Origin: a virus
IMG/VR virus record: IMGVR_UViG_3300047168_000114
Span: 1 to 26,370 of that record
Strand: one strand, 5' to 3'
Length of the DNA stretch: 26,370 nt
The translations under genes were made by a program, and so were the position numbers. Below, piece after piece: positions 3,868-25,237 of this stretch. The notes beneath the pieces were generated by a model that worked only from the letters and a program-made list of their open reading frames with translations, ran no database searches and was not told the origin of the DNA. Position 1 is the first letter of the stretch; every line of letters starts with the position of its first letter.

Positions 3868-3881
3868 CACATCAAAATGTG
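3868..3881. promoter_or_regulatory. Operator-type palindrome CACAT-N4-ATGTG (perfect)
   Basis: CACATCAAAATGTG followed by TTTT. It lies 38 bases upstream of the 3378-3830 start, in an AT-rich gap between that gene and 4033-4593. On the minus strand TTGCAG stands upstream of it at promoter-like spacing. It is identical in arms and spacing to the palindrome between the repressor and Cro-like genes. A direct repeat of TTAAATCT flanks the neighbouring site (3892-3939). Likely a repressor site for the 3378-3830 operon. Confidence 0.75.
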
Positions 3882-3906
3882 TTTTACTGCAAGATTAAAT
3901 CTAGGC

Positions 3907-3920
3907 AACATCGGCATGTT
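3907..3920. promoter_or_regulatory. Second palindrome in the same gap, AACAT-N4-ATGTT
   Basis: AACATCGGCATGTT is a perfect palindrome with the same five-base arms and four-base spacer as the phage operator, differing by one symmetric base pair in each outer position. It lies 39 bp (centre to centre) from the perfect site at 3868. Two sites in one AT-rich intergenic region suggest paired binding. The rest of 3831-4032 holds a small TAAAGC/GCTTTA hairpin at 3972-3988 and no gene I can support. Confidence 0.5.
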
Positions 3921-4032
3921 TCGGTTAAATCTTAGCCTTGCGCTTGTGTTTTGTTTAGGATCAATGATTTATAAAGCGTTTTGCTTTAAAATTCCTGTGT
4001 GGTGAGCATCGGCGAAAACTACATCGGACCGA

Positions 4033-4593
4033 TCAGGCAATCGTTGCCGATGCGCTAGGCCAGCTTGGCGTGCCGCCAGCCTCGGCCGTGCCGAGCGCGA
4101 TGTCCGCCGCCGCCACGAACTGAGCTGCTGCGCTGGCGACTTCCTTGAACACCGCAATCGAAGGGATCATCACCAGGGCGCCGTTAAGCAAAGGCCATGG
4201 CTGTGTCGCGCCGAGCGGAAAAGCACCATTTGCGAGCACATAAGTCTCGGTGGCGCTGAAATTGTCCTGGGCGGCGGCGTCAACCGCGTATGTGCCATTA
4301 ATTGCAGGAGTCGCGGTGCTGGTGATCGTCAAGCCGCCGGCAATCAGGGAGGCAAACTGCGCTTGTGCGGCCTGAGCCACGGTCGGCGCGGGTGCGGCCG
4401 GTGCGATCTGCGCCAAAACGCCTCCATTCACGAACCAGTTGCCTTCCGCCTGCGCGTCCCATTGCGCCTGTGTCGCGATGACCAGGTCGGCTGCCGCAGG
4501 CAAGTTCGGGTAGCTGAAAGCATCAGTGTCATACCAGCCGAGAACAGGCTGCGGTGACGCGGCGGCGGGATTGAAGCTGGCGTATAGGGGCAT
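4033..4593 (-). CDS. Tail-appendage-associated protein, DUF4376-like, 186 aa
   Basis: The N-terminal 55 residues resemble the short phage-tail-fibre companion segment that tracks a tail fibre gene (MPLYASFNPA...PVLGWYDTDA, then WDAQAEGNWFVNGG). Residues 75-185 look like the DUF4376 type (AQFASLIAGGLTITSTATPA, NGTYAVDAAAQ, VFKEVASAAAQFVAAAD). Such proteins sit beside tail fibres and may help assembly or fold at the fibre tip. ATG at 4593 has AAGGA eight bases upstream and shares a base with the stop of the small secreted-protein gene before it. Family assignment from memory of the pattern, moderate. Confidence 0.65.
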   Translation of the reverse strand: MPLYASFNPAAASPQPVLGWYDTDAFSYPNLPAAADLVIATQAQWDAQAEGNWFVNGGVLAQIAPAAPAPTVAQAAQAQFASLIAGGLTITSTATPAINGTYAVDAAAQDNFSATETYVLANGAFPLGATQPWPLLNGALVMIPSIAVFKEVASAAAQFVAAADIALGTAEAGGTPSWPSASATIA

Positions 4594-4760
4594 CAGGCCG
4601 TCCTTTCAAAACAAATTTCGTGCGTTGCCCGTGTCCACGCGGGCAGCGAGTTGCAGTTATCCGCCGCCGATGGAGATGGTTCGGGGAGAAAAAAGTGCGA
4701 GCCATCGGCGAACGCGAGGGTGGGTAGGAGGATAAAGGCCAGAACTAGGATGCGGATCAT
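4593..4760 (-). CDS. 55-aa secreted protein with signal peptide
   Basis: A small frame from ATG 4760 (AGGAG seven bases upstream, ATGA overlap with the gene before) to TGA 4593 (TGATG overlap with the gene after). Residues 1-18 are a clear Sec signal (MIRILVLAFILLPTLAFADG) with a likely AFA cleavage site. The mature part of about 37 residues has two cysteines (36 and 50) that could form a disulfide. The ribosome site and both stop/start overlaps make it a convincing gene. Function unknown; exported with the surface-type proteins upstream. Confidence 0.75.
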   Translation of the reverse strand: MIRILVLAFILLPTLAFADGSHFFLPEPSPSAADNCNSLPAWTRATHEICFERTA

Positions 4761-5752: not shown

Positions 5753-5946
5753 GGCTTGAACTTCTTATCGTAGTAGAACGTTTGCACGTCGTTCGCGGAC
5801 AGGTTGCGTGACGAGAATGCGGCGACGGGCTTGACTGACAACCGGTCCAATACCAGGGCGTGAGCCGGCTTATTCGGCTGCGCGACGGGCAACGCCGCTG
5901 CCACGGCGACCGTGCTCACGCCCACCAAAAACTCGTGCCGATCCAT
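5746..5946 (-). CDS. 66-aa exported protein, short paralogue of the next gene's N-terminus
   Basis: I start at ATG 5946, which shares a base with the upstream TGA. Residues 1-30 are signal-like (FLVGVSTVAVAAALPVAQP). The mature part ALVLDRLSVKPVAAFSSRNL aligns without gaps with VFVLDLLSAFPAVAYSVRKL of the following gene (10 of 20 identical), then stops after about 15 more residues. It looks like a truncated duplicate of the first domain of 4757-5752. No ribosome site is obvious; coupling by overlap on both sides is likely. Confidence 0.6.
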   Translation of the reverse strand: MDRHEFLVGVSTVAVAAALPVAQPNKPAHALVLDRLSVKPVAAFSSRNLSANDVQTFYYDKKFKPC

Positions 5947-6473
5947 CAGTTCGCAAACCCGGTCTGCACCCACAGCGTCGTCTCAGCGGTCGTGCCGTTG
6001 GTGAAAACCACCTTGTAGCTCGCGCAAATTAATGGAGCCTGCAAGGTCGTAGCACCGCCGCCGGTCGTGCTCGATTCCTGAAATTCGACGTACCCCGTGC
6101 CGTTGTAGCACTGGATCTGAAATCCGTTGGAAGCGCTGGACTGGTCTGAATAAACCACGGCGTAAAAATACCGCGCGCTCGTGGCCGTGGGGAGAGTCCT
6201 AGCCGAACCGGTGAATGTCGCGGACGCGCCAAGCGCGGTCGTGGTCTCGGTCCAATAGGTCGACGGAGGCGGCGAAACACCGTCGGATAGCGGAATTCCA
6301 TTGGCATCGGTCGGCCAAGCGCCGTATGTGCCCGCATTCGAATTGTAGAGTTGCTGAAGGAAGAGCGCCGGCGCACTGGTGATCGTCGGCGGCGCTGCCG
6401 CGACGGCTGGCAGAACCGCCATGAAGACGCCCAAGATCGCGCCGAAGAGGGCTTTCAGGAATTGCTTACGCAT
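5946..6473 (-). CDS. Exported beta-rich phage protein, 175 aa
   Basis: Start chosen at ATG 6473; the open frame further upstream crosses an operator and has no ribosome site. Residues 1-27 form a Sec signal (RKQFLKALFGAILGVFMAVL, then PAVAAA). The mature part is Thr/Ser/Ala-rich with beta-strand character, a GTYGAWPTDANGIPLSDG loop and two cysteines near the C-terminus that could pair. It is first in a run with two other exported proteins. A virion-surface or adhesion role is plausible. Family not recognised. Confidence 0.65.
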   Translation of the reverse strand: MRKQFLKALFGAILGVFMAVLPAVAAAPPTITSAPALFLQQLYNSNAGTYGAWPTDANGIPLSDGVSPPPSTYWTETTTALGASATFTGSARTLPTATSARYFYAVVYSDQSSASNGFQIQCYNGTGYVEFQESSTTGGGATTLQAPLICASYKVVFTNGTTAETTLWVQTGFAN

Positions 6474-6539
6474 TGCGGCCAACCGTCCTATCCATGATTG
6501 GGCGACATTGCCGGCGGTTGGTCGCCTTTGTTTTTGTGG

Positions 6540-6568
6540 TTGAAAAACACATTTACATGTGCTCATTT
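6540..6568 (+). promoter_or_regulatory. Promoter-like -35 with perfect operator in the spacer
   Basis: TTGAAA (6540-6545) is followed after 17 bases by a weak extended -10 (TGCTCATTT). The perfect palindrome CACATTTACATGTG occupies the spacer at 6548-6561. The first 15 bases, TTGAAAAACACATTT, recur exactly at the early promoter at 19498, and TTGAAAAACACAT recurs on the minus strand at 17857. The site lies between the divergent genes 5946-6473 (minus) and 6680-6886 (plus) and could control either. No second palindrome was seen in the remainder of 6474-6679. Confidence 0.65.
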
Positions 6569-6679
6569 GGCGAAGGAAGCAGACGCCCGTGATCATCGGG
6601 ATCCCGGGGCCGCCACCCTGCCGGCGGAACGTTGTCCGGGCGTTTGCTTTCTCCCGCTTCCACAAAACGAGAGAACGAA

Positions 6680-6886
6680 ATGAAAAAGCTCTATCTCATC
6701 TTGCCGATGGTTGGCTTTCTGGCTTTAAGCGGCTGCGACAAGTATGGCAGCGGCGGCGGCTTCTCGCACCTGCTCGGCAACTGGGCGCAGGTCAACCTGC
6801 CCGACGGGTGTGTCGCCAAGCAGATCGCGGTCGAAGAGAATTCCGGCGTCGCTGTGCTCTGCGAAGACGGCCGGGTCTTTCATTAA
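6680..6886 (+). CDS. Small lipoprotein, lone plus-strand moron
   Basis: The 68-aa product has a textbook lipoprotein signal: MKKLYLILPMVGFLALSGC with Cys19 as the lipidation site and Asp at +2, which in enterobacteria favours inner-membrane retention. The mature domain has two more cysteines (C50 and C61, in GCVAK and LCEDG). It is the only plus-strand gene in the 19 kb of late genes and is bounded by a regulated promoter region and a strong hairpin, the classic moron layout. Phage lipoproteins of this size often mask receptors or block superinfecting DNA; that role is inference. An upstream in-frame ATG at 6632 would bury the signal and is rejected. Confidence 0.8.
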   Translation: MKKLYLILPMVGFLALSGCDKYGSGGGFSHLLGNWAQVNLPDGCVAKQIAVEENSGVAVLCEDGRVFH

Positions 6887-6894
6887 CCAATACC

Positions 6895-6955
6895 CCCGGC
6901 GCAGACAGGTCCTGAGGCCTGTGATAAGCGAAGGCGGGATAGCTTCTGCGCCGGG
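6895..6955. terminator. Large branched hairpin between convergent genes
   Basis: CCCGGCGCAGA (6895-6905) pairs over 11 bases with TCTGCGCCGGG (6945-6955). Inside the stem is a second hairpin, CAGG/CCTG near 6906-6921, and a possible third, AAGC/GCTT, so the whole can fold as a multi-branch structure. It lies between the stop of the plus-strand lipoprotein gene and the stop of the minus-strand MuF gene. No long T-run follows, so termination may be weak or Rho-assisted; a small structured RNA is the alternative. Confidence 0.6.
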
Positions 6956-6980
6956 CCCCGTGTACTTCTTAAACTGCCAG

Positions 6981-9335
6981 CTACGCCGGCTCCAACTCTT
7001 CGGAACCGCCGAATAGATCATCCGGGTCATCGATGTCGTAAGCGGGCTTTGGCCCATCCCAGAAATTCGGCGTCGGCGTGCCATAGGCGGCCGGTCCGTG
7101 GCGAACTGCATGGCTGCGAGGCACCAGGGTCGTCATAATGGTACACCTGCACCGAACGACTTCCTTCGCCGCCGCATCCGGGTCATGCGGCCATCTGATC
7201 CTTTCGCCCGAATCACACACGAATGGGGTATTCAGCCCAAGCACAGTCTGCCGGTGCAGCCCGCGGTGATCGGGCCGCGTCTTATCGTCCTCTGTCGCAA
7301 TCCACGTCTTCGCCACAGTCCATTCGGGATGATCGTCGAGAAAGCCCTCGACAGTCTTGATGTGGCCGTTGTTCGCGGCTCGGAGTGCCTCTGTGCGGGC
7401 GATCGTCATGGCGCGGCTGGCGATCATGCGCCGCTGGTAGGCGTCGACCATCTTATCGACCTGGGCGCTGCTAAGCGCCTTCTTAGCGTCGATCGCCTTG
7501 GTAATCGTGGAATCATAGCGCTTGTCGCGCAGCGCGAAGGCCATCGCCCGTGGGTCCAACGTCTCCAGCAGCGTGCGATAGTTTGCTACGATGCTAGCCT
7601 GATACGCGGTGAGCCCGACGACGTCGCGGATCTTGCGCGCGATCACAGCCGGCGGGTCGGCCTTGTTCGTCGCATCGACGATGATCTGCTTTATGTTCTT
7701 GCGCTGGGCTTCGGTGATCTCGCGCACGCGCTTATAGCGATATGCCTTGGCATAGTCCTGCACCGCGTCGGATCGCACGTTGAAGCCGAATTGCAGCAGG
7801 CGCGGCCGGGGTTTGCCATCTACATCATCATTGCTCGGCGGCGGCTGCAGGCGCGATGGTGCTGCGATGCCTTCGGCCGTGGCTTTGTCCATCGGCGCCA
7901 TGCCGGCGAACAGCGGCGCGTCTAGCTGGTCGAATAGGCCGCCTGGCGCGTTCGGCGAAGCGACGCTATCTGGCGTGACAGCGTCTTTCCAGCCAGCCAG
8001 CGCGCGGCCGACGCCGGCGGCCAGGTCGTGTTCGATATCGACGGCGGCGGACAGAAGGCGGCGGGGTGTTGAGGTGGATTTTCGCTTTTTCTGAGGCGGG
8101 GCGTCGTTTTCACCCGGCTGGTTCGCGTCATCCGGCGCAGCCTTCGCCAGCCCGGATTTGTGCACATGTGCATTTTTGAAAATGCGATCAGCCGCCGCGC
8201 CGCCGGCCAGAAGCCCAGCACCGGCGCCAGCGATCAGCAGATTGCGCCGCGCCACCGGCCGGAAGAGTGCAGCGAGCCGCCTGGTGATCGCGCCATCGGC
8301 CGCCGCCGCAACTGTTTTTGCCCCGGTCATTTCCTCGTTTGCGCGCTCGGCCTCTCGCATCGTCCGCGCGCCGTGCCGCGCTTTGATATCGGCTAGAAGC
8401 TCGTCGCGCATCGCTTTGCGCGCCTCAGGCTTTGGATAGCCGCCGGTGGTGACTTTGCCCGCCGACACGATCTTGATCGTGTTGGTCACCTCGGTCGTCT
8501 TTTTGGTGGCCTTCAGTTTCAGGTTCGGCAGGCTGGCTTCGTGCTTCAGGAAGGTAGCAAAGGCGTTGCGGTCCTGCGGCTCCAGCGCGCGAAAATGCGC
8601 CTCGAGCTTGTCGATCGAGCCGATGCCCAAATCGTGCAGCACCGACTTTTCGCTACCCGGCGACGCATCGTGCTCAAACATCTCCTGCAGGCGGTCGCGC
8701 GTGGCTTGCGAGAGGATCAGCTTCAACTGGCCTTTGATCTCGCGGGTAAAGCGATCGACCTTTGGCCGTTTGATGTGAGCGACGCGGTCGCGAACTTCCG
8801 GCTCTTTGCCCTTGGCGCGCAGATCGGCCGCGGTTGCCTTAAAGCGGTCGGCCTGGTCGGCGTTGAGCATCATCGCCCGCGCCGTCAGCCTGTATTCGCC
8901 CTCTGGGTCGTCCGTTGCCCAACCGCCCTCCCCACTCGTGCTGTCGAAGAACGGCTCGGAGTGCGCGTCCTGGTGCCGGGCGAGCGCGCGGTTCGCCATC
9001 CGCGCCATACGAAATTTTGCTTCGTACGCTCGCGGAGCGTTCGAAAGAAAGTTGCTCGGGGAAAGTTTCTGCCTCGCATTTTTGGCGCGGCGGTCGATGA
9101 ATTCCTGGTTGATCTTGTGCGTGCGGAAAGCCGCGCGCAGCGGCCCGAGCGCTTCCTGCTTACCTGACACGGCTGACCGGCGAATTGCCGTGACACCGGC
9201 TTGCGTGGCGGCGCCGGAGGCGAAAGCGCCGGCAGCCGCGCCGGCGGCGGTGACGCTAGCTTCTTTCGCCTTATCCCAGCGTGCGCGGGCGGCGTTGCGG
9301 CGTTCCTGGATCTGCGCAGGCGATAGGACAGCCAT
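6981..9335 (-). CDS. SPP1 gp7 / MuF-type minor head protein with a very long N-terminal extension
   Basis: The last third carries the MuF (SPP1 gp7) head-morphogenesis pattern: ARTEALRAANNGH near residue 655, TWIATEDDKTRPDHRGLHRQ, then PFVCDSGERIRWPHDP and a closing VRCRCTI. Family members join the portal and help assemble the head, and SPP1 gp7 leaves the capsid with the DNA. Here the MuF part follows about 500 residues of mostly helical, basic sequence with a glycine-rich hydrophobic segment (LLIAGAGAGLLAGGAAADRI, about 370-390). Total length, 784 aa, is well above the usual 250-500. The extension may be an internal or ejected part. ATG at 9335 shares a base with the preceding stop. Confidence 0.85.
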   Translation of the reverse strand: MAVLSPAQIQERRNAARARWDKAKEASVTAAGAAAGAFASGAATQAGVTAIRRSAVSGKQEALGPLRAAFRTHKINQEFIDRRAKNARQKLSPSNFLSNAPRAYEAKFRMARMANRALARHQDAHSEPFFDSTSGEGGWATDDPEGEYRLTARAMMLNADQADRFKATAADLRAKGKEPEVRDRVAHIKRPKVDRFTREIKGQLKLILSQATRDRLQEMFEHDASPGSEKSVLHDLGIGSIDKLEAHFRALEPQDRNAFATFLKHEASLPNLKLKATKKTTEVTNTIKIVSAGKVTTGGYPKPEARKAMRDELLADIKARHGARTMREAERANEEMTGAKTVAAAADGAITRRLAALFRPVARRNLLIAGAGAGLLAGGAAADRIFKNAHVHKSGLAKAAPDDANQPGENDAPPQKKRKSTSTPRRLLSAAVDIEHDLAAGVGRALAGWKDAVTPDSVASPNAPGGLFDQLDAPLFAGMAPMDKATAEGIAAPSRLQPPPSNDDVDGKPRPRLLQFGFNVRSDAVQDYAKAYRYKRVREITEAQRKNIKQIIVDATNKADPPAVIARKIRDVVGLTAYQASIVANYRTLLETLDPRAMAFALRDKRYDSTITKAIDAKKALSSAQVDKMVDAYQRRMIASRAMTIARTEALRAANNGHIKTVEGFLDDHPEWTVAKTWIATEDDKTRPDHRGLHRQTVLGLNTPFVCDSGERIRWPHDPDAAAKEVVRCRCTIMTTLVPRSHAVRHGPAAYGTPTPNFWDGPKPAYDIDDPDDLFGGSEELEPA

Positions 9336-9808
9336 TATCCAGCGGCGGCGTCAGGCGCCTTGAACGTCATGAAATAGGGCAGCACGTAGAACCGGCCAGG
9401 ATATTCGAACTGAACCTTGCCCGCGTTGATGAGATCGATCAGCTTTTGCTGCTCGTCGCTGCTAAGGTGCTGAAAATAGAATTTTTGGTGGTTGTCGATA
9501 TAGGCTTTGTAGCTCTTGTCGGTCGGCGTGATCTTCTTGCCCGCCTCGATGGCTGCGAAGAACTCGTCGGGCCTGAGCGATCCGCAATAGCTGCAGGTTT
9601 GAGAGTTGGGATACCAAAAGTCCTCGGCGACCAGGTTATCCGCGCGGAACACTTCGCGGCGCCGCTCGCACATAAAGAGCACATGTGGATGTGATTCTTT
9701 GACGTGCTTATGCACTGACAAAATGGCATTTTCCTCGACTGTCCGGGGCGAGGATTCGCCACGGAGCGTCTCGTCGCAGTGCGGGCATTTGGCATAAGCG
9801 GGGGTCAT
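9335..9808 (-). CDS. Zinc-ribbon protein, 157 aa, phage head region
   Basis: Two metal-binding pairs are visible: CPHC (residues 8-11) followed by HKHVKESHPH (33-42), and CSYCGSLRPDEFF (72-84). A PTDKSYKAYIDNHQKFYFQH segment follows. This CSYCGS-PDEFF-PTDK arrangement recurs in uncharacterised phage proteins encoded near portal genes. Start at ATG 9808 with AGGAG seven bases upstream. Likely a structural zinc protein, perhaps nucleic-acid binding or a head-assembly factor. Function not known. Confidence 0.7.
   Translation of the reverse strand: MTPAYAKCPHCDETLRGESSPRTVEENAILSVHKHVKESHPHVLFMCERRREVFRADNLVAEDFWYPNSQTCSYCGSLRPDEFFAAIEAGKKITPTDKSYKAYIDNHQKFYFQHLSSDEQQKLIDLINAGKVQFEYPGRFYVLPYFMTFKAPDAAAG
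9680..9693. promoter_or_regulatory. Perfect operator palindrome inside the zinc-ribbon gene
   Basis: CACATGTGGATGTG matches CACAT-N4-ATGTG exactly but lies within coding sequence (the HPHVLFM part of 9335-9808), without A/T flanks. It may be an internal stoperator-like site or a coincidence of the His/Val codons. Confidence 0.4.
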
Positions 9809-14411: not shown

Positions 14412-14425
14412 AACATTACAATGTG
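14412..14425. promoter_or_regulatory. Operator-type site AACAT-N4-ATGTG upstream of the late promoter
   Basis: AACATTACAATGTG differs by one base from the perfect palindrome and ends eight bases from the -35 element. A second, weaker copy (CTCAT-TTTC-GTGTG, 14431-14444) follows 19 bp away, in step with the tandem repeats. Repressor binding here could block or bend the promoter. Confidence 0.55.
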
Positions 14426-14459
14426 CATTTCTCATTTTCGTGTGCATTTCTCATTTTCG
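14422..14459. repeat. Two perfect tandem 19-bp repeats
   Basis: TGTGCATTTCTCATTTTCG occurs at 14422-14440 and again at 14441-14459 with no mismatch or gap. The second copy overlaps the stop codon of the GcrA-like regulator gene. Relative to the minus-strand promoter the repeats lie upstream of -35, about two helical turns apart, where activators bind. They may be the target of the adjacent regulator or a doubled operator. Confidence 0.85.
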
Positions 14460-15319: not shown

Positions 15320-15333
15320 CACATTTCGGTGTG
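15320..15333. promoter_or_regulatory. Operator-type site before the GcrA-like gene
   Basis: CACATTTCGGTGTG (one mismatch) with a GTTTT flank, in the 131-base gap between the large terminase stop and the regulator start. On the minus strand it overlaps a possible GTGTCA-N16-TAAATT promoter. It would place the regulator under the phage repressor. Confidence 0.6.
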
Positions 15334-15352: not shown

Positions 15353-16954
15353 TTAATTTGACATCCCGCCCGTTTTGAAGGTCCGCGCTAGGTCGTCCGT
15401 CTGTTCGTGGGTCACGCCGTCTTTTGGCTTGGATTCCGCAGCTTCTTTGGCCAGTTTGTCCTGGTCCAGCAGGCGCGAGTAGTAGTCGAGGATGCCTGTG
15501 TTCGACCGGATGAACCCCTTGAAGGCTTGCGCGGCCGCATCCACCATGTCGTCGTGAGCCGCCGTCGGGAATCCGGCCAGCTCGGCTAAAAACATGTCGG
15601 TCCAGTCGGCGTCGAGAATAACTACGTTGCCGATCATGGCCTGGCTGGCCACCGGCGCTGCGTTGACAGCTTTATCGCCGGTGACCGGCTCGCAGACGAA
15701 GGAAAAGCCTGAGAGGTTCCCGCCCTGCTGCTCGGCTCGCGTCTTGCCGGCGGCGCCGGGGTCCTGGGGATAGCGTATGCGCGTCGCATAGCCGTCCACA
15801 GTGGCGATGGTCCGCATGATGCGGTCCACCTCACCGCCATCCACGCGCCAGCGCTGGACGTCAACGATGTAGTATTTCTGGGTAATTCGACTGTGTCCGA
15901 TCTTGACGGTGGCCGTCCAGTCGGGGTCAGCTTTGATCAGGGATTTTACAGTGGCGGCAAAGTCCCATCCGCGGCAGAATTCGAGGTCGGCGGGCAGCTC
16001 GTGCAGTTTGCAACGCGGGAACCAGGCTGTTTTGAATAGACCGCCCTCACGCGGACCTGGGAGCTGCTGGAACTGACTGTTGAAGGCATAGGAACCAAGG
16101 TTGTTTGAGAACCGCTCGATTACGCCGCGCGGCATATGCGCCGGCCAGAGCAACTCTCCTGTCTCGGTGCGCGGGTCTCCCGGCCACAAATGCGGGTGCT
16201 TGGGATCAAAATAAACTGGCAAGCTCATGTAGCGATATTCGCCCGGCTGGCGCTTCAAAATGTCTCCGATTACGTCGTTTTCGCCAACCCGCTGGTGGCA
16301 GACGATGAACACGCCGGTCTTGGGATCGTTGAGGCGGGACTGGACACGCTCTCGCCAGAAATTAAGAACCTCGGTGCGCTTTACGTCTGATTCGACATCC
16401 TTAATGTCATGCGGATCATCGGCCAAAATGACATTGGCGCCCTTCCCCATAACACGTCCGCCCACTGAAATACACTCCCTGTATCCGGTCTTAGTCGTCT
16501 CCAGGATGATTGAGTTGTCGGTTTTGAGCTGCACCTTTGCGCCCCAACGGTCTTGAAACCATTCGCTGGAGACAAGGTCTCGTGTTCTCTTCGAGTCGCG
16601 GATCGCCAATGAAAAGTCGTAGGAAATGAACATCATACGCTGCGACGCGTCTTTGATCCAGTAATAGGCCGGAAACATGACCGACAAGATTGTCGACTTT
16701 GAATGCCTGGGTGGACACGCAATGGCCAAGCGCCGGTTGCGCCCCGCCATGACATCCTCCAGTTCGCGGCAAATCTCATCGATGTGCCAGTTTGGAACGA
16801 AGACGGCCGTGGGCTCGATAACGTGCCAGGCCAACTCCACGAACGCCCGAAGCCCAAACCGCTCGACCATCGCGCGATCGAGGTCGATCAGCGCCTGTTT
16901 CGACGAAAGCCATGCGGCGTTGTGGAGAAGTTTGGAGTCTAGACCTTCAGGCAT
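15353..16954 (-). CDS. terL: Terminase large subunit (ATPase and nuclease), 533 aa
   Basis: The packaging motor pumps DNA through the portal and cuts the concatemer. The ATPase half has a Walker A-like loop (ACPPRHSKSTILS, residues 79-91; the phage P-x-R-x-x-KST type) and a Walker B (NVILADDPHD, 174-183). The nuclease half shows the acidic residues expected of an RNase H-like fold: GWDFAAT (329-335), YPQDPGAAGKT (395-405) and HDDMVDA (447-453). Length is normal. ATG at 16954 lacks a good ribosome site; an ATG at residue 29 is less likely as it would lose conserved sequence. Confidence 0.95.
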   Translation of the reverse strand: MPEGLDSKLLHNAAWLSSKQALIDLDRAMVERFGLRAFVELAWHVIEPTAVFVPNWHIDEICRELEDVMAGRNRRLAIACPPRHSKSTILSVMFPAYYWIKDASQRMMFISYDFSLAIRDSKRTRDLVSSEWFQDRWGAKVQLKTDNSIILETTKTGYRECISVGGRVMGKGANVILADDPHDIKDVESDVKRTEVLNFWRERVQSRLNDPKTGVFIVCHQRVGENDVIGDILKRQPGEYRYMSLPVYFDPKHPHLWPGDPRTETGELLWPAHMPRGVIERFSNNLGSYAFNSQFQQLPGPREGGLFKTAWFPRCKLHELPADLEFCRGWDFAATVKSLIKADPDWTATVKIGHSRITQKYYIVDVQRWRVDGGEVDRIMRTIATVDGYATRIRYPQDPGAAGKTRAEQQGGNLSGFSFVCEPVTGDKAVNAAPVASQAMIGNVVILDADWTDMFLAELAGFPTAAHDDMVDAAAQAFKGFIRSNTGILDYYSRLLDQDKLAKEAAESKPKDGVTHEQTDDLARTFKTGGMSN

Positions 16955-17172: not shown

Positions 17173-17379
17173 TTAACGCAAAGCGTGCGATGCCGCGCTG
17201 TTGTTTAGCGCTTCAGCGAGCTGCTTTTCCAAATCAACAATTCGCGCCGAGGCGGCTTTCATGTCGTCAGAAATGTTGGCGCCAGGTTGATAGGCACTCA
17301 AGATCGTCACAAAGCCGCTGCCGTGCGCTGGGTAACCGCTAAACTCGGCAGTCAGAAGACGTTCCGCTAGGGTGCTCAT
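17173..17379 (-). CDS. Hypothetical small protein, 68 aa
   Basis: Start ATG 17379 with AAGGA six bases upstream and an ATGA overlap with the preceding gene; an open extension upstream has no ribosome site. The N-terminal half is mixed (AERLLTAEFSGYPAHGSGFV), the C-terminal half a helix (MKAASARIVDLEKQLAEALN) that could dimerise as a coiled coil. Not recognised. Confidence 0.6.
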   Translation of the reverse strand: MSTLAERLLTAEFSGYPAHGSGFVTILSAYQPGANISDDMKAASARIVDLEKQLAEALNNSAASHALR

Positions 17380-17447
17380 ATCTTTTCCTTCGTGCCAAAG
17401 CGCTCCGCTTCGCCGCCGCAGAACGGGCATGGTTTCAGGTTGCTCAC
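17376..17447 (-). CDS. Possible separate 23-aa Lar-like zinc peptide
   Basis: A GTG at 17447, with GAGGG about ten bases upstream, would give a 23-residue peptide with LKPCPFCGGEAERFG, the zinc-knuckle opening of Lar-type restriction-alleviation proteins. Full Lar proteins are about 60 aa with a second metal pair, which is absent here, so this is either a remnant, a minimal zinc peptide, or simply the C-terminus of the longer frame. Function in restriction alleviation is unproven. Confidence 0.35.
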   Translation of the reverse strand: MSNLKPCPFCGGEAERFGTKEKI

Positions 17448-17822
17448 TTTAAGGCCCTCACTGTCACGTGACGCTCCTCGATTTACGGTGCCGCGGCGCC
17501 GGCTGAAGCATCGCCAGCGCCAGCGCATCAACGATCCGGCAAGCCGCGATCGTAAGCTGACGGCCCTGTTCTCTCGATCATCGGCTGTCATCTCGCCTTC
17601 GATGAAGACGCCGCCGGCACGCCGATAGCGCTCGTCGCGAAGGATTGCGTCAATCTCGGCGCGTGCCGCGGTGAGCGATTCGACCATTGTCGGAATCTCG
17701 AGCGTGTTGCGGACCAGGCGCAAAGCCCAGTCTTCGACGCGATGAACGGCCTCCTGGGTCCGGTCGACGCGTGCTTGCCTGATCCGGTCGGCGCCGCGAA
17801 ACTCGCAATCGTTAATCTGCAT
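17376..17822 (-). CDS. Hypothetical protein ending in a Lar-like zinc motif; possible frameshift
   Basis: The open frame encodes 148 aa. The first 80 residues are helical and protein-like (ARVDRTQEAVHRVEDWALRL, AEIDAILRDERYRRAGGVFI). From about residue 81 the frame turns into Arg/Trp/Ser-rich sequence unlike the rest, while another frame from near 17570 to a TGA at 17464 gives GRQLTIAACRIVDALALAML, which looks far more like protein. A single-base indel or frameshift near 17563-17575 would join them. The last 23 codons match the start of Lar restriction-alleviation proteins. ATG at 17822, operator 14 bases upstream. Confidence 0.5.
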   Translation of the reverse strand: MQINDCEFRGADRIRQARVDRTQEAVHRVEDWALRLVRNTLEIPTMVESLTAARAEIDAILRDERYRRAGGVFIEGEMTADDRENRAVSLRSRLAGSLMRWRWRCFSRRRGTVNRGASRDSEGLKVSNLKPCPFCGGEAERFGTKEKI

Positions 17823-17835: not shown

Positions 17836-17857
17836 CACATTTAGATGTGTTTTTCAA
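17836..17857 (-). promoter_or_regulatory. Perfect operator with adjoining TTGAAA element
   Basis: CACATTTAGATGTG (17836-17849) is a perfect copy with AAA and TTTTT flanks. Read on the minus strand it is preceded by TTGAAAAA, giving the same TTGAAAAACACAT arrangement as at 6540 and 19498. It overlaps the end of the small terminase gene and ends 14 bases before the start at 17822, so it could repress a promoter inside the packaging operon. Confidence 0.7.
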
Positions 17858-18798
17858 GCCCGCGGAAGCGCGCCTTCCAGGATTTCTTCTGCGACCCCTT
17901 CGAGTGCGTCTGCTTCCGTTGCCGGCCGCGTCAGCGCGACCTCCTGGTTGAGCATGGCGGCGGCGCGCCGCAACTCCATCATCTTCTCCATCGAAAGCGT
18001 CGTCAGGACCTCTTTGACCTGCTCGGGAGGATCCTCGCCGCCGGCGCCGGCCGCATTGGGCAGAAGTTTGGCTTCCATGCTGAGCGCCTTCCGCCGGATG
18101 GCCAGGCCCTTGTCCACGGTGGCTACCGCGGCGCGCACCAGGCCAGACAGTGATTCCGTCTTGCTGCCGACCATACGCAGCCGGGAGGCGATTTGGCGCA
18201 CCAAATCCTCGTCACTGCTGGAAATCAGGATCGACAGCTGGTCTATCAGCGTGGTGCCAAACGCGATGATCTGGTCGGATTTGGCGATCTCTTTAAGGAT
18301 CTGCTGCTGCTGGACGGCGGCCATCCGCTTGCCCGCGCGCACCGCTCCCGCCTGATCGGCGACCGCTAATTCGCCGATGGTGCGCGGCGGCTCTTTTTTC
18401 GTAGTTTCTTCGAGAACGTCGTCAAGGTTTGAAAACGGCGGCGCCAGCGGAACGGGTGGATTTGCACCACTTGCACCACTTTGCGCACCACCCAACTCGC
18501 CGTCCGCACCAGCCGCCAGGACCATGTCGATCACGCTGTTCGTCGCGACGTTGGCGGCGATCATGTTGGGGTCCTTACGCCAACCTTCTTTCTGCTGCCG
18601 GCGCAGTACGGTGGTGTGGGATTTCTGTCCGAACTTTCGTGCCAGTTCCCGAATGCCGATCTCCGTGGTCTCGAATTCATGCTTCATCTCAGCCCAGAGC
18701 CGTTCCTGGCCTTCGGTGGAGAGCGAAGCCTGCAGCTTGGCGCGCCTTTTGGCTTTATCAGCGGCGACTTTCTTCAGTTTCAGGTCTCTTCTGGCCAC
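17854..18798 (-). CDS. Terminase small subunit candidate, about 314 aa
   Basis: The gene precedes the terL operon, as small terminases do. Residues after the start are basic and helical, followed by FETTEIGIRELARKFGQKSH and TTVLRRQQKEGWRK, an HTH like that of phage terminase small subunits (DNA-end recognition). The rest is long helices and an acidic C-terminal tail. Start is uncertain: the frame extends to TTG 18924 or ATG 18885, but that part is AT-rich and carries a plus-strand promoter and an operator, so I choose GTG 18798. It is larger than typical (about 150-200 aa). Confidence 0.7.
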   Translation of the reverse strand: MARRDLKLKKVAADKAKRRAKLQASLSTEGQERLWAEMKHEFETTEIGIRELARKFGQKSHTTVLRRQQKEGWRKDPNMIAANVATNSVIDMVLAAGADGELGGAQSGASGANPPVPLAPPFSNLDDVLEETTKKEPPRTIGELAVADQAGAVRAGKRMAAVQQQQILKEIAKSDQIIAFGTTLIDQLSILISSSDEDLVRQIASRLRMVGSKTESLSGLVRAAVATVDKGLAIRRKALSMEAKLLPNAAGAGGEDPPEQVKEVLTTLSMEKMMELRRAAAMLNQEVALTRPATEADALEGVAEEILEGALPRA

Positions 18799-18880: not shown

Positions 18881-18894
18881 CACATCCCGATGTC
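18881..18894. promoter_or_regulatory. Operator-type site in the early promoter
   Basis: CACATCCCGATGTC differs by one base from the palindrome. It covers about +10 to +24 of the promoter at 18836-18864, a position where a bound repressor would block the early operon. Confidence 0.55.
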
Positions 18895-18923: not shown

Positions 18924-19211
18924 ATGAACAACTTGTTCGGCGCGGCGCTCGATGACCAGGAAGACGAGACTCTGCGCCTCTGGTACGAGGAACCCGTCGT
19001 GTATCGCGACATTCCGCATCCGGTTCGCAGATCTACCGCTTTCGCGTTGCACAGCATTGAATTTCAGAGCTGGAGCCGGCTAAGAGACATCAGCCGCCTT
19101 CCGCGCGCCGCCGTGGCGCCGGGCAACCGCATCATGAGCGCCGCCGAGGCCCAGACGTTTCTCGCACAGCGGGAAATGCCTGGGATCAGAAATCCAGGCC
19201 GGGACGCTTAA
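18924..19211 (+). CDS. Hypothetical early protein, 95 aa
   Basis: ATG at 18924 has GAGGAGAA eight bases upstream. The N-terminus is acidic (NNLFGAALDDQEDETLRLWY), the rest basic with no known motif and no membrane segment. First gene of the plus-strand early operon. Its stop codon lies in the loop of a strong hairpin (19197-19220). Phage early proteins of this size often target host functions, but nothing specific is visible. Confidence 0.65.
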   Translation: MNNLFGAALDDQEDETLRLWYEEPVVYRDIPHPVRRSTAFALHSIEFQSWSRLRDISRLPRAAVAPGNRIMSAAEAQTFLAQREMPGIRNPGRDA

Positions 19212-19497: not shown

Positions 19498-19526
19498 TTG
19501 AAAAACACATTTCTTTGTACTATGTA
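19498..19526 (+). promoter_or_regulatory. Early promoter with operator-like site in its spacer
   Basis: TTGAAA (19498-19503), 17 bases, TATGTA (19521-19526). The spacer holds CACATTTCTTTGTA (19506-19519), a degenerate copy of the operator. TTGAAAAACACATTT is shared exactly with the site at 6540. The start codon GTG 19554 follows about 20 bases after the expected transcript start. Confidence 0.7.
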
Positions 19527-19878: not shown

Positions 19879-20772
19879 ATGACCTACACCGATGAAAACG
19901 ACCTCGACGACGAAGTGGTGGAGACACCGTTCGTCGAAGAGGCGCCGGCGGCCGAGCTGCCGCAGCGTTCCGTCGTCATCGTGCGTCCGCACGTCATGCT
20001 GGCCGCGATGGTGGCAATGTCGACCGAGGAAACCCGCTACTATCTGAACGGGATCTTCATCCAGCCCCACGAAGACGGTGGGATCGTCCTGACCGCGACC
20101 GACGGGCACTTGCTCGTTACCATCAGGGACTCTTTCGGCTACGCCGAAGGCCCGGCGCAGATCTGGCAAATCAAAGACATGGTCTCGATGATCAAGGCCA
20201 AAATCAGCGCCCAGGGCAAGTTCCTGAAGGACAAAGCACTGCTTCGGTATGAGTTCGACGGTTCGACCACAGACGGCAAGGGCAATCGCCGGCAGGGAAA
20301 ATCCCGGCTCGGAATTGCCTTCCAAGACGTCGACGACGTGAAGGACATGGAGGTCGGCTCGGAACACTGCGATATGCTTGCGTCGCCGGCGTGCATCGAC
20401 GGGACGTTTCCGGAATACGGGCGCGTCATCCCCCAGGTCGGGGAAACACGCTCTGGAGCCTGCATCCAAGCCGCTTTGCTCATGCGTATTGGCAAGTTCG
20501 CCCAGGAGATCACCAACGCCAAGCTGGCCGCGGTGAATCTGGAGATCAGCGACGAATCCGGGCCGAGCTGCTTCCATGTGGCGGCGCCCGGCGAAGGCCT
20601 GGACGCGATCGGCGTGGTTATGCCGATGCGCGGCCCAGCCAGACTGCATCACCATCCCGATTGGCTTGTGAAGGTGACCGGACGCCCCGAATTGGGCGCC
20701 CCGCCGCCGGTCGAGATGATCAAAACCAGCGAGGATGCGGAATCCGACGACCAGGTCGCGAAAGCGGCCTAG
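19879..20772 (+). CDS. DnaN-like sliding clamp (beta-clamp fold), 297 aa
   Basis: Landmarks of the bacterial beta clamp are visible: LAAMVAMSTEETRYYLNGIF then IVLTATDGHLLV (residues 41-80, as in clamp domain II), CIDGTFPEYGRVIPQ (172-186, the FPDY-RVIP block) and AIGVVMPMRG (243-252, the C-terminal VMPMR). At 297 aa it is shorter than chromosomal DnaN (about 370), so one of three clamp domains seems missing; a trimer of two-domain units or a different oligomer is possible. It would tether a polymerase during phage replication or compete with the host clamp. Structured leader B precedes it. Confidence 0.75.
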   Translation: MTYTDENDLDDEVVETPFVEEAPAAELPQRSVVIVRPHVMLAAMVAMSTEETRYYLNGIFIQPHEDGGIVLTATDGHLLVTIRDSFGYAEGPAQIWQIKDMVSMIKAKISAQGKFLKDKALLRYEFDGSTTDGKGNRRQGKSRLGIAFQDVDDVKDMEVGSEHCDMLASPACIDGTFPEYGRVIPQVGETRSGACIQAALLMRIGKFAQEITNAKLAAVNLEISDESGPSCFHVAAPGEGLDAIGVVMPMRGPARLHHHPDWLVKVTGRPELGAPPPVEMIKTSEDAESDDQVAKAA

Positions 20773-20773
20773 A

Positions 20774-20787: not shown

Positions 20788-20834
20788 GCTTGACTCATGT
20801 CAGGCTTGATGAAATCCTCAACAAGGAGGCAAAC

Positions 20835-21173: not shown

Positions 21174-21181
21174 CAACACGA

Positions 21182-21197: not shown

Positions 21198-21224
21198 GCC
21201 CGAAAGGGTGTGAAAACTGCAAAA

Positions 21225-22000: not shown

Positions 22001-22002
22001 CC

Positions 22003-22037
22003 AAAAATCCTCCTGGGCTCAGCCTGGGAGGATTTTT
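22003..22037. terminator. Strong bidirectional terminator between convergent genes
   Basis: AAAAATCCTCC (22003-22013) pairs with GGAGGATTTTT (22027-22037), with GGCTCAGCC inside the loop region. It serves the plus-strand membrane gene and the minus-strand repressor gene. Confidence 0.9.
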
Positions 22038-22042
22038 GCGTT

Positions 22043-22744
22043 TCAGCCTTCGGGAATGAATGCGCCAATCACGACGCCGGCGATGACATACCGCTCTCCA
22101 CCGGACTGCCAGACGCGGCCGCTGATGTCCTGGGGCAGTTTGACAGCGCCTTGAAGGCGTGGGTCCGTAGAACGCTGGGACAGCCACAGGCGCCCCTCGG
22201 CGTCTTCCTGGACCTCGCGGACGGTGACCTCGATCCTCGTGTCCACCAGGCGTTCGACGAGCAGTCTGCGCCCCTTTATAATGATCCCCTTGTATCGCGC
22301 GATCGGCTCGACCAGTAGAAGCGTCTTCTCTGGGTAGATCTCCTCGGCGCCCGGCCTGCGCACCATCGCAGCGAAAGCCCCAGCCTGCCGCGCGGAGTCG
22401 TCCACGGGCAAGGGTAGTTCCCTGATCTGATTGGCCGGCAGATTGAATGATTCCCGCAAGTGATGCCCCTGCACATATGTACGCAACAGCACCGGCGCGC
22501 CCGTTTTGCGCCCCTTTTTATCGCCCAGGAGGTCTTCCATCGTGAGCCCCGGCATCTGGGCGAGAATTTGCTGATATGTCGCGGTCGTAAGCGAGGCCGA
22601 AATTCCGTTCATGAAATTATAAATTTTTGTCGGGTGAGCCCATCCACATTTGCGTGCGAGGTCTGTGGGCGTCATCCCGCGCGCATCCAGCGCCTCCTTC
22701 AGCGCGTGCCGCCTCATCTCTGCGATGGCGTCTTCGTCGGTCAT
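22043..22744 (-). CDS. CI-like phage repressor, HTH plus S24-like domain without the catalytic residues
   Basis: Residues 8-50 form an HTH (EMRRHALKEALDARGMTPTD, ARKCGWAHPTKIYNFMNG). Residues 120-233 follow the LexA/CI C-terminal fold (YPEKTLLLVEP, YKGIIIKGRRLLVERL, YVIAGVVIGAFIPE). Where autocleaving relatives have G-x-SM the sequence reads GAFAAMVRRP, and the Lys-bearing strand reads EVTVREV, so the Ser/Lys pair seems absent. It should dimerise but not self-cleave. Start ATG 22744 with AGGA nine bases upstream; the GTG at 22792 lies inside the operator and is rejected. Probably binds the palindrome at 22790 and its copies. Confidence 0.8.
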   Translation of the reverse strand: MTDEDAIAEMRRHALKEALDARGMTPTDLARKCGWAHPTKIYNFMNGISASLTTATYQQILAQMPGLTMEDLLGDKKGRKTGAPVLLRTYVQGHHLRESFNLPANQIRELPLPVDDSARQAGAFAAMVRRPGAEEIYPEKTLLLVEPIARYKGIIIKGRRLLVERLVDTRIEVTVREVQEDAEGRLWLSQRSTDPRLQGAVKLPQDISGRVWQSGGERYVIAGVVIGAFIPEG

Positions 22745-22789
22745 AGACTTTATCCTGTACAACATATTGCGACAGTTTTCCTTGGAAAC

Positions 22790-22803
22790 CACATTATGAT
22801 GTG
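22790..22803. promoter_or_regulatory. Perfect operator between repressor and Cro-like genes
   Basis: CACATTATGATGTG is the only such palindrome in the divergent gap. It contains TATGAT on the plus strand and CATAAT on the minus strand, each a plausible -10 element for the gene on that side, so one site may govern both directions. TTGGAA lies just before it on the plus strand, echoing the TTGAAA at other sites. Confidence 0.8.
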
Positions 22804-22816
22804 TTAACCCGAAAAA

Positions 22817-23152
22817 ATGCAGCGAATCGACCAGCTACTCGAAGAGATCAAAACCAGGGGAAAAGCCCTCAACGTGTCCATCCCAGGCTTGGCGAAACTC
22901 GCCGGCCTTGGCCAGAATACTCTGCGTGGGATCGAAAGCGACGCATGGTCGCCGAGTCGTGACACGATCAGGAGCCTTCAGGACTGCATTGAGCAGCTGG
23001 AAAAATTGTCCCTTGCGGAATTGCAAAAAGTCGCCGGTACCAAGAAAGTCCACCCTCCTAAAATCCTGGGCGTACCCCGCCCGAAGCAAAAACGTTCTAA
23101 CACTACGGCATCTCCTAAATGCACAATAGAATGTGCTCCAGGCGATGATTAG
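22817..23152 (+). CDS. Cro/XRE-like HTH protein, 111 aa
   Basis: Residues 8-55 look like an XRE-type HTH (KALNVSIPGLAKLAGLGQNT, LRGIESDAWSPSRDTIRSLQ). A helix (CIEQLEKLSLAELQKVAG) and a basic tail follow. It diverges from the repressor gene, with the shared operator 13 bases before the ATG. No Shine-Dalgarno is present; if TATGAT in the operator is the -10, the mRNA would be almost leaderless. It is the natural candidate for the lytic partner of the repressor switch. Confidence 0.75.
   Translation: MQRIDQLLEEIKTRGKALNVSIPGLAKLAGLGQNTLRGIESDAWSPSRDTIRSLQDCIEQLEKLSLAELQKVAGTKKVHPPKILGVPRPKQKRSNTTASPKCTIECAPGDD
23122..23135. promoter_or_regulatory. Operator-type site at the end of the Cro-like gene
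   Basis: CACAATAGAATGTG, one mismatch, inside the 3' end of 22817-23152 and just before the following small gene. The AT-rich gap that follows (23153-23257) has no clear promoter. Confidence 0.45.
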
Positions 23153-23267
23153 CAATAGATTACCGCCAAAGGCAACAGAAACGGCCAAAAATAACCCTAC
23201 TGCCTCGATAGCTTACAGATCGTTTAGAAAGGTGCCACCCAGGGGTGTAGTCACCGAGTGCGGCTAA
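23145..23267 (+). CDS. 40-aa small basic protein
   Basis: ATG at 23145 overlaps the end of the Cro-like gene by eight bases and the frame ends at TAA 23267, just inside the nuclease gene. The peptide is basic and polar (PPKATETAKNNPTASIAYRS, then FRKVPPRGVVTECG). Supported by overlap on both sides; the ribosome site is weak. Confidence 0.4.
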   Translation: MISNRLPPKATETAKNNPTASIAYRSFRKVPPRGVVTECG

Positions 23268-23782
23268 CACGCCCCCGCGCCAAGAGCGTCGTTGCGCAAG
23301 GCCTTCTCTTTCAAGAAAAATCGAAGCCGGAAAGACGCGAAAACAAGCTCCAAGGAGCGATGGTGGAATATTTCGCCGCCGTCGTTCCAGTCGGGTCGGC
23401 AATCCTATTTGCGGTCCCGAATGGGGAGTACCGGGACAAGCGGACAGCCCTTCTGCTCTCCGGGCCGGCGAAGGATGACCTTGCACCTGACGATGTGTTT
23501 TTGGTCCCCGCAGGGCAGGGAGTGCTTTCCGGGGCGCCCGACCTCGTTTTGCTAACGGACAAGGCAACCGTTACGCTGATCGAAGTGAAGGTGCCGAAAG
23601 AGGGTGGCAAGCTCGCCGGCGTTATCTCTCGAGCTCAGAGGATATTCCACGCCGCGGCGCGGTTACTTGGGCACCAGGTCGAAGTCGTCAGGAGTGTGGA
23701 TGATTTCGACGCGCTGTTGCGCCGGAAAGGGGTTCCTGTGCGGGCTGTGCTGGTCCCGCGGGCGTTTGGACTGACCGGCTAG
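23258..23782 (+). CDS. VRR-NUC domain nuclease, 174 aa
   Basis: The VRR-NUC fold (PD-(D/E)XK class) is visible: RRENKLQGAMVEYFAAV (26-42), FAVPNGEYRDKRTA (51-64), then the catalytic core GAPDLVLL (92-99) and LIEVKVPKEGGKL (107-119), followed by Q127 and GHQVEVVRSVDDF. Likely metal ligands are D95 and E109 with K111. Phage members occur beside replication genes and are thought to process branched DNA. The GTG start at 23258 keeps the conserved N-terminal helix; an ATG at residue 35 with AGGAG would lose it. Its stop shares CTAG with the convergent minus-strand gene. Confidence 0.85.
   Translation: MRLTRPRAKSVVAQGLLFQEKSKPERRENKLQGAMVEYFAAVVPVGSAILFAVPNGEYRDKRTALLLSGPAKDDLAPDDVFLVPAGQGVLSGAPDLVLLTDKATVTLIEVKVPKEGGKLAGVISRAQRIFHAAARLLGHQVEVVRSVDDFDALLRRKGVPVRAVLVPRAFGLTG
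23484..23497. promoter_or_regulatory. Operator-type site inside the nuclease gene
   Basis: CACCTGACGATGTG followed by TTTTT: one mismatch in the left arm and a T-run as at the other sites. It lies in coding sequence with no promoter nearby, a stoperator-like position. Confidence 0.4.
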
Positions 23783-24333
23783 CGCGCGGCCTCAGCGGGG
23801 CGGCTGAGAGGGACCAGGCGCGTGACTTTTTCGGTTTCGACCAACCAACCTTCGGCCAGGACCTCCTCGGGAGACGGCAGCGCGGCCGCATAGTGCCGGC
23901 CGAGGATAACGTTCATTTCGTGGCGGAGCAGGTTGTACTCTTCCAGCGCCGGCTGGATGCAAAGCCAAATCTCGGCTGCCGTCGGAAACCATTCACACGA
24001 CCGGATCACGTCACGCTGGCATGCCGAGCTGAGCAAAACCTTCGGGACGCCTTCGAGCGCAAACGCGATCCCGGCGATCCGGTTTTTGATGTCCTCGTCG
24101 GTCATGTTGCCGGCTTTGGTGCAGGCCAGGATGGCAGCGAGCCAGGCTTTCACGTCCTCGGCAGTGACGTTTCCGGCGGTCATCGCCATCTTTCCCAGGA
24201 CGAAGGCGGCGTTACGCCAACGGGCGGAGCCTGGTTTGATTTCGGAGGCAGTCTGACCATTGCGCATTGCCAGGACGGTGCCAACGATCGGGTGGGTTTC
24301 CTCAATTCCCAGGGCTTTCAAAGCTCGAAACAT
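23779..24333 (-). CDS. Replication-associated protein, possible helicase loader, 184 aa
   Basis: The protein is helical. Residues 85-130 (GIAFALEGVPKVLLSSACQR, then RSCEWFPTAAEIW) match a pattern I know from uncharacterised phage proteins encoded next to DUF1376 and DnaB genes, in the position of lambda P-type loaders. No ATPase motif. Start ATG 24333 with GGAG about 11 bases upstream; it overlaps the end of the DUF1376 gene by 16 bases. Loader function is inference from position. Confidence 0.6.
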   Translation of the reverse strand: MFRALKALGIEETHPIVGTVLAMRNGQTASEIKPGSARWRNAAFVLGKMAMTAGNVTAEDVKAWLAAILACTKAGNMTDEDIKNRIAGIAFALEGVPKVLLSSACQRDVIRSCEWFPTAAEIWLCIQPALEEYNLLRHEMNVILGRHYAAALPSPEEVLAEGWLVETEKVTRLVPLSRPAEAAR

Positions 24334-25208
24334 GTGGGCGCGATCTCCTCGGCGACGCTATCGATTGTGGTCTTGAACGCATTTTGGTGTGTTTTTTTGG
24401 CACCGTCAAGCAGTTCTGCCAGGACGCGGGATTTCGCGGTTGATGGAACTGGGGGCGCCGCGGTCGTGACGAGGTCTTCGTCCCGCCAGCGCTGATCCCG
24501 CAGCCAGCGGTGGGGGTCCTTGCGAAACTGCGGATCGGGCTGGGCGCGAGTGTAGCGGCGAACGCCGGCCATCAGGGTTTCGAAGTCCACGATTTTCAGG
24601 GCTTTGGCAAACTGCTCCCGCGCAGCCTTCGGGTCGCGCTTCCGGCCGTAGGCTTCGTAAAACACGGAAAAATCTCGATCGATCGCGGAAACGGTATTTT
24701 CAGTACCAAGGTTATTATTCTCGCTAAGGGTATTTTTAGTAAGAGACTCTTTCTTAGTAATAGGTAGTGGTAGTGGTCTGCCCCCTAGTTGACGTTCTGT
24801 TGAACCACTTGTTCGAACATGTGTTGAACACATGTTGTCTTTTTGTTGCGCTGATCGTGCGGCCGCTGATGCCCTTCCTGCCCCCTGTCGCTTCGCGATA
24901 ATGCCTTTCGCCTTATCGAGTTCGGCGTCAATTCTCTTGTGCCGATAGAAGCCCTCGTCTAGATAGAAAAACTTCATAAGCTCGTTTCGAGACGCCCTCC
25001 ACTCCTTTGAATTCATTCTTGTTATCGAGCGAAGTCTTTCCGGATCGGAAGGAAGTTTCCCGTCGTTCGTCCATGCGTTAAAGATCAAAAGAAGGTACGC
25101 GCCGTGCTCAATGGTGCGCAGGTGATTGGTGTCGCGGTAGTAGTCTGACACGTAAAATGACAGCCACAAATCGGGCCTTTTCTTGGTCTTCACTCGGACG
25201 CACTCCAT
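24318..25208 (-). CDS. DUF1376 replication initiator-like protein, 296 aa
   Basis: Residues 13-95 are a DUF1376 domain (DLWLSFYVSDYYRDTNHLRT, EHGAYLLLIFNAWTNDGKLP). A linker rich in Ser, Thr and Asn (about 110-170) holds the repeats described at 24786. The C-terminal domain (FSVFYEAYGRKRDPKAAREQ, then DPHRWLRDQRWRDED) is typical of phage replication proteins of the lambda O type. It probably binds the origin and, with the next gene, loads the helicase. ATG 25208 has no clear ribosome site; an operator-type site lies 16 bases upstream. Confidence 0.75.
   Translation of the reverse strand: MECVRVKTKKRPDLWLSFYVSDYYRDTNHLRTIEHGAYLLLIFNAWTNDGKLPSDPERLRSITRMNSKEWRASRNELMKFFYLDEGFYRHKRIDAELDKAKGIIAKRQGAGRASAAARSAQQKDNMCSTHVRTSGSTERQLGGRPLPLPITKKESLTKNTLSENNNLGTENTVSAIDRDFSVFYEAYGRKRDPKAAREQFAKALKIVDFETLMAGVRRYTRAQPDPQFRKDPHRWLRDQRWRDEDLVTTAAPPVPSTAKSRVLAELLDGAKKTHQNAFKTTIDSVAEEIAPTCFEL
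24378..24391. promoter_or_regulatory. Weak operator-type site near the end of the DUF1376 gene
   Basis: CGCATTTTGGTGTG followed by seven T. Two symmetric changes from the perfect palindrome, giving a CGCAT-N4-GTGTG subclass shared with 25224. It lies 45 bases before the start of 23779-24333. Confidence 0.4.
24786..24836. repeat. 12-bp iteron-like repeats and perfect palindrome: candidate replication origin
   Basis: Three tandem 12-bp units start at 24798, 24810 and 24822, each TGTT(C)GAAC plus a short tail, with a related unit before them. The third unit is part of a perfect 21-bp palindrome (24816-24836). A 70-base AT-rich stretch (24703-24775) adjoins. Everything lies inside the linker of the DUF1376 gene, as lambda ori lies inside gene O. 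Confidence 0.6.
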
Positions 25209-25223
25209 TGCATTTTTGAGGAG

Positions 25224-25237
25224 CGCATTTTTGTGTG
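25224..25237. promoter_or_regulatory. Weak operator-type site before the DUF1376 gene
   Basis: CGCATTTTTGTGTG with a TTTTC flank, in the 32-base gap between the helicase stop and the DUF1376 start. Same subclass as 24378. Confidence 0.45.

Follow-up and report, generated by a model that had tools for sequence, protein, structure and literature searches.

Operators of described temperate phages

Lambda CI, 186 CI and LexA act at palindromic operators with cooperative tandem sites, and the phage operators of lambda and 186 CI are confined to a few promoter regions; symmetric conserved inverted repeats that are dispersed over the genome and bound by the repressor occur in phiC31, with another sequence and in another host group. 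The subject of this report is a palindrome, CACAT-N4-ATGTG, dispersed over the IMG/VR virus record IMGVR_UViG_3300047168_000114, a linear viral record of 26,370 bases without end repeats, which we analysed at its full length and call the window, together with the putative repressor gene (22043-22744, minus strand) to which one copy is adjacent. We put at roughly 85% the probability that the copies are palindromic dimer operators of this CI/LexA-type repressor, which would occlude promoters and thereby silence much of a prophage.

Phage P1 possesses 22 C1 operators with an asymmetric 17-bp consensus, which are dispersed over the genome and serve one repressor for the lytic genes (PMC8546580). 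The present system is like P1 in that a large temperate phage combines dispersed operators with a single repressor, whereas its site is palindromic rather than an asymmetric 17-mer and is putatively read by a protein of the CI/LexA fold. In SPbeta the element SPBRE is repeated at intergenic promoter regions and bound by the master repressor MrpR (PMC10516654); here, too, the repeated element of a large prophage is found in intergenic promoter regions, although MrpR has a tyrosine-recombinase fold and the present repressor joins a helix-turn-helix (HTH) to a CI/LexA-type fold. Phages of the L5 type use asymmetric 13-mers bound by a monomer with an HTH and a Stoperator domain, and L5 itself has more than 20 repressor sites through its genome, in promoters and in short intergenic gaps (PMC9283540). 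The many dispersed repressor sites are shared with L5, whereas the asymmetry of its sites and the two DNA-binding domains of its monomer are not. The present system works like P1 and SPbeta and lacks the L5 features that we tested. The name "stoperator-like", used in the original prediction made from this DNA, is not supported, given the palindrome, the HTH with a CI/LexA-type C-terminal fold and the promoter features at many sites; its expectation of a "distinct example" was overstated, since dispersed repressor sites were already known in P1 (PMC8546580) and SPbeta (PMC10516654).

Dispersed switches have been described in a few phages, and the family of very likely switches reported here is previously undescribed. 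What is new is probably a repressor of the CI/LexA fold, likely dead as a peptidase, with a genome-wide palindromic operator set and with relatives that have fewer sites. It adds a well-supported phage-wide operator regulon, with one relative in a host that we take to belong to the Acetobacteraceae, and comparing the phages of this repressor family makes it possible to trace the passage from a local switch to repression of the whole genome.

Abundance and conservation of the motif

Perfect copies of the motif are found at 3868, 6548, 9680, 17836 and 22790 of the window, five against 0.02 expected, a number matched in 0/100 shuffles. One-mismatch copies start at 14412, 15320, 18881, 23122 and 23484, and two-mismatch copies at 3907, 14431, 19506, 24378 and 25224; all 15 positions of the original prediction (five in each class) exist as it described them, and its view that the motif is non-random is borne out. 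We found five further two-mismatch matches that it had not listed (7214, 8163, 15123, 22639 and 22645), so that the copies with at most two mismatches number 20 (7.3 +/- 2.8 expected), and several weak sites were rescued through their A/T flanks and synteny (19506, 24378). When dyads were scanned with no motif assumed, CACAT-N4 came out on top in the window (p 1.6e-10, not corrected for the roughly 20,000 tests made), and a relative had this core, in its extended form, as its top dyad as well. The extended consensus, AAAAACACAT-TWWA-ATGTGTTTTT, is palindromic in two phages and does not correspond to an asymmetric 13-bp site of the L5 type.

The operators had been predicted to span the whole phage; the window turned out to be a 26-kb record whose genes are collinear, in inverted orientation, with about 39.5-64 kb of a relative, the 95.5-kb record G001, at about 40-70% protein identity (genes of the window, G001 and two further records, G010 and G011, were called with a simple codon-usage caller and not taken from curated annotation). 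G001 encodes a tyrosine integrase, and because of this and the collinearity the window is best read as a piece of a large temperate phage, even though no integrase was found in the fragment itself. A temperate life style is also indicated by G011, which carries an integrase and lies inside a contig of Rhodovarius crocodyli. A portal search yielded no further relatives.

The motif is conserved between these two phages. A matrix built only from G001 recognizes 12 window positions at 12 bits or more (0.2 expected), and a window matrix recognizes 23 positions of G001 at 14 bits or more (0.5 expected); at 17 bits or more there are 11 sites in the window and 24 in G001. Many copies are thus spread over the prophage, mainly at promoters, in the manner of P1 and SPbeta. 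About eight sites occupy matching gene junctions (window/G001: 22790/43398, 23122/43083, 24378/41805, 19506/46301, 18881/46937, 17836/47967, 15320/54193+54225 and 3868/62390+62422), where they persist at roughly 40-70% protein identity while the N4 letters differ. In G001, 21 of 26 sites are intergenic despite 87% coding (p about 7e-15). The statement that copies in the window lie mostly in gaps or at promoters stands for 10 of the 15 scored sites, which are intergenic by our own gene calls (window 85.5% coding), but not for 9680 (a perfect copy), 23122, 23484 and 24378, which fall within genes.

Linkage of the motif to a repressor family

When 2.9 million viral contigs were searched for AAACACAT-N4-ATGTGTTT, irrespective of any protein, 17 stretches were returned, and outside the G001 group at least two perfect core copies were present in three of the scanned records, G010, G011 and G013. 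Homologues of the window repressor are encoded in G010 (E 5e-14) and G011 (E 7e-17), at about 26% identity; G013 (30% GC) has no repressor homologue, and its two motif copies are probably due to chance. G010 contains four sites, two on each side of the repressor gene. G011 contains about eight, all of them intergenic, one in the 35-bp gap between the repressor and a divergent gene and the others either at 76.7-91 kb, on the replication side, or close to where the record begins. Among the G011 sites are 566/598, 76708, 77871, 85091, 89081 and 91008. Over 8 kb G011 is identical to a contig of R. crocodyli CCP-6 and it lies in a 552-kb contig; in the 5.3-Mb genome of R. crocodyli all six perfect copies (6/6) are inside the prophage, and the rate across 299 genomes of the family of this host is about one per genome. 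As CCP-6 is a named strain with this relative integrated as a prophage, experimental tests are practical. In the 57 loci related through the terminase alone (744 kb) there is neither a perfect copy nor a repressor homologue. A scan of genomes with the motif pattern gave, R. crocodyli excepted, mostly single matches in unrelated, often AT-rich taxa, which apparently reflect chance, and no match came from scanning genomes with the repressor alignment. The idea of a dispersed symmetric set, linked to an HTH/S24-like repressor and extending across early and late genes, is thus upheld, as the motif tracks the repressor family, and enrichment in relatives is evident from the G001 matrix and from the sites of G010 and G011.

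Other members of the family have altered sites. The cyanophage Pan3, with a repressor 25% identical to that of the window, has three GCATAT-N4-ATATGC-like sites, one upstream of the repressor and, on the opposite side of it, two that are spaced by 31 bp; by alignment the Pan3 repressor is likely to start downstream of the annotated position. In G004 the repressor is flanked by CACAG-N4-CTGTG and CACAT-N4-GTGTG. In Pan3 and G004 the letters differ and the geometry is retained, which is what one would expect if these were operators and their repressor family had diverged. The Nostoc phage Nsp-JY10, whose repressor has a differing recognition helix, contains TAGCG-N5-CGCTA three times around the repressor region (L019 19906, 21128 and 21163), and these palindromes are likely its operator set.

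The repressor and the Cro-like protein

The repressor of the window (233 aa) has homologues with 61% identity in G001 and 24-30% in G011, G010, G004 and Pan3. Family models match it weakly (HTH_3, E 0.024; for the G001 homologue HTH_26, E 4e-4; both under the curated cut-off). An AlphaFold (AF2) model (mean predicted local distance difference test score 77.8) consists of an N-terminal helical HTH of the Cro/CI type, whose five helices fall in residues 3-72, followed by a C-terminal domain rich in beta structure. Foldseek matched it to PDB structures of a 186-lambda hybrid (7jvt), lambda CI-RecA (8gmu) and LexA (3jso and 1jhe) with E values from 4e-6 to 3e-4 and modest template-modelling scores, and the model accordingly assigns the C-terminal domain to the S24-like (CI/LexA-type) fold; it shows this domain, and not a Stoperator domain, next to the HTH. 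Lambda CI, 186 CI and LexA share this fold, but the catalytic Ser/Lys pair of S24 proteins is lost in the present repressor: in the alignment Ser is replaced by Gly and Lys by Arg in the window and in G001, and the pair is also absent in G011 and G004, while it is present in G010, Pan3 and Nsp-JY10. Since the pair is replaced, self-cleavage is unlikely, judging from the alignment, for the repressors of the window, G001, G011 and G004; the loss lowers the case for a self-cleaving CI and leaves the fold assignment intact. 186 CI is another member of the fold that is not known to cleave itself. Homologues without the pair are encoded at L041 4327-5064 and L017 10001-10663 as well as at 22043-22744 of the window.

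Divergent from the repressor gene, a small Cro-like HTH protein is encoded at 22817-23152 on the plus strand, with a weak HTH_31/HTH_3 match. Its homologues adjoin the repressor in G001 and G010 (32-34% identity), and the HTH region is their best conserved part. As predicted, the gap between the two genes holds a perfect operator copy (22790-22803), with a TTG 8 bp upstream toward cro; its counterparts are G001 43398, G010 1336/1367 and G011 85091.

Promoter context and proposed mechanism

A -35-like TTG at -8 toward the downstream gene accompanies 13 of 90 flanks (1.9 expected). In the window, G001 and G010 these include the site that faces the Cro-like gene, and this register would put the operator in the -35/-10 spacer. 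A tRNA-Met gene of G001 (65773-65845; L013 5773-5845) starts 10 bp after an operator copy, and two sites syntenic between the window and G001 lie directly 3' of hairpin terminators. Close site pairs are 31-33 bp apart in six of nine cases, with the bin picked after the data had been seen; this distance equals three helical turns and suggests cooperative dimers.

The motif, where it lies and how it is conserved, its association with the repressor family and the loss of the catalytic residues are read directly from the sequences; from them we infer how binding, dimerization, cooperativity, repression and induction might work. Each palindrome would be bound by one repressor dimer, which would block initiation by covering the -10 element or the spacer between it and the -35; where sites stand in tandem, at a distance of about three helical turns, the dimers would probably cooperate. 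Because the sites are at many promoters across the early and late regions, one repressor could directly silence much of the prophage. As the repressor is devoid of the S24 Ser/Lys pair, induction would probably proceed independently of RecA-stimulated self-cleavage.

The numbers of sites (four flanking the repressor in G010, three in Pan3, about eight in G011, about 25 in G001 and 11 in the window fragment) allow a tentative and rather doubtful suggestion about how such a set arose. The operators may have multiplied within the repressor family, from a classical switch to an early-region set and then to a genome-wide one, roughly in step with the loss of the active site, whereby a lambda-type repressor would have become a direct silencer of early and late genes, possibly bridging sites of the prophage; this few-to-many trend is drawn from the window, G001, G010, G011 and Pan3, of which G010 and the window are fragments that may have further sites.

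Several observations weigh against or limit the reading of promoter occlusion by a single repressor. The two-mismatch class alone is near background and not significant by itself. The exact motif occurs in about four lineages (window, G001, G010 and G011) and not six, because G002 is a piece of G001 (99.98% identical), and was rejected as an independent lineage, and G009, which repeats the G001 sites, is probably the same phage. The -10 elements are poorly conserved at spacer-type sites, and the copies inside genes, the perfect one at 9680 and a small number of weaker ones, may lack function. The chromosomal repressor homologues G085, G070, G288 and G073 do not have this operator set, and none of them yielded a clear operator. 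Finally, some sites may belong to the Cro-like protein, alone or jointly with the repressor, and it could be the main binder at many.

Alternative explanations

The last point can be carried further, to sites that belong to the Cro-like protein or to another phage regulator, for instance as activator sites for lytic promoters. The motif is probably also an operator of the Cro-like protein, which the window, G001 and G010 all encode next to the repressor, with its HTH as the best conserved part, but we consider its ownership of the whole set unlikely: a motif search based on sequence only returned records that carry the repressor homologue, sites are found on both sides of the repressor gene in G010, Pan3 and G004, and the overlap of the operators with promoter cores is what one would expect for a repressor. 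Stoperators of the kind seen in L5, where repressor bound in transcribed regions halts the elongating polymerase, are improbable here, even if many sites do occupy short gaps between co-directional genes as described for L5. The site is symmetric, the modelled C-terminal fold is of the CI/LexA type with no second DNA-binding domain, and promoter-like elements stand in a fixed register at many sites; moreover, the positions just before the tRNA gene and right after hairpin terminators are places for promoters, and therefore promoter occlusion is preferred over arrest of elongation. Short palindromes are also typical of host regulators, yet use of host transcription factor sites by the phage is barely conceivable in view of the confinement of the R. 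crocodyli copies to the prophage and the low rate in the genomes of its family, and we rejected it on the R. crocodyli evidence. We likewise rejected, as scarcely credible, short RNA hairpins or bidirectional intrinsic terminators (an inverted repeat followed by a T run), which the arms and A/T runs could form with a U tail, since the arm pairs change almost always on one side (32 changed pairs comprise 20 broken pairings, 11 G-T and one compensated), the sites have no Rfam match, and they lie upstream of genes and in divergent gaps.

Individual sites and further features of the window

Apart from the copy in the repressor/cro gap, the candidate operators of the window are as follows. The perfect operator at 3868-3881 lies upstream of 3378-3830 (minus strand) and is syntenic with G001 62390/62422, a pair 32 bp apart at the matching junction; the weak two-mismatch site at 3907-3920, 39 bp from 3868, is a possible second member of a tandem pair. 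Another perfect operator (6548-6561) is located between the divergent genes 5946-6473 (minus) and 6680-6886 (plus), while the perfect copy at 9680-9693, inside gene 9335-9808 (minus), is without A/T flanks and of uncertain function. The one-mismatch site at 14412-14425 has no counterpart in G001, and the weak site 19 bp from it (14431-14444) is uncertain. Between the gene for the terminase large subunit (15353-16954) and the next gene lies the operator 15320-15333, syntenic with G001 54193/54225. The perfect operator at 17836-17849, flanked by a T run and with TTG at -8 toward the downstream gene, is placed between 17854-18798 (minus) and 17376-17822 (minus) and is syntenic with G001 47967. 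The one-mismatch operator at 18881-18894 is upstream of the divergent genes for the small terminase and 18924-19211 (plus), in synteny with G001 46937, and the operator at 19506-19519, with the promoter-like TTGAAA-17-TATGTA, directly follows a terminator-like hairpin, as does its syntenic partner, G001 46301, which is likewise directly 3' of a hairpin.

On the far side of the repressor/cro gap, the one-mismatch site at 23122-23135 is near the 3' end of the Cro-like gene, with G001 43083 at the matching place, and that at 23484-23497, inside a VRR-NUC gene, is uncertain, no counterpart having been found. Two putative operators cover the -10 of promoter-like elements: 24378-24391 (TTGACG-17-CAAAAT), upstream of 23779-24333 (minus) and syntenic with G001 41805, and 25224-25237 (TTGACC-17-AAAAAT), upstream of 24318-25193 (minus); the promoter-like matches in this region are just twice the shuffled number. 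A perfect hairpin at 24816-24836, AACATGTGTTGAACACATGTT, in a replication gene, consists of the operator half-sites in reversed order.

Two further observations concern other genes. In G001 a gene for S-adenosylhomocysteine hydrolase lies near a DNA methyltransferase gene (L013 9648-10955 and 14381-14908). The product of 19879-20772 in the window, conserved in G001, gives a weak match to the beta-clamp of DNA polymerase III (PF02767, E 1e-5, just under the curated cut-off); a phage-encoded sliding clamp such as this candidate would be unusual.

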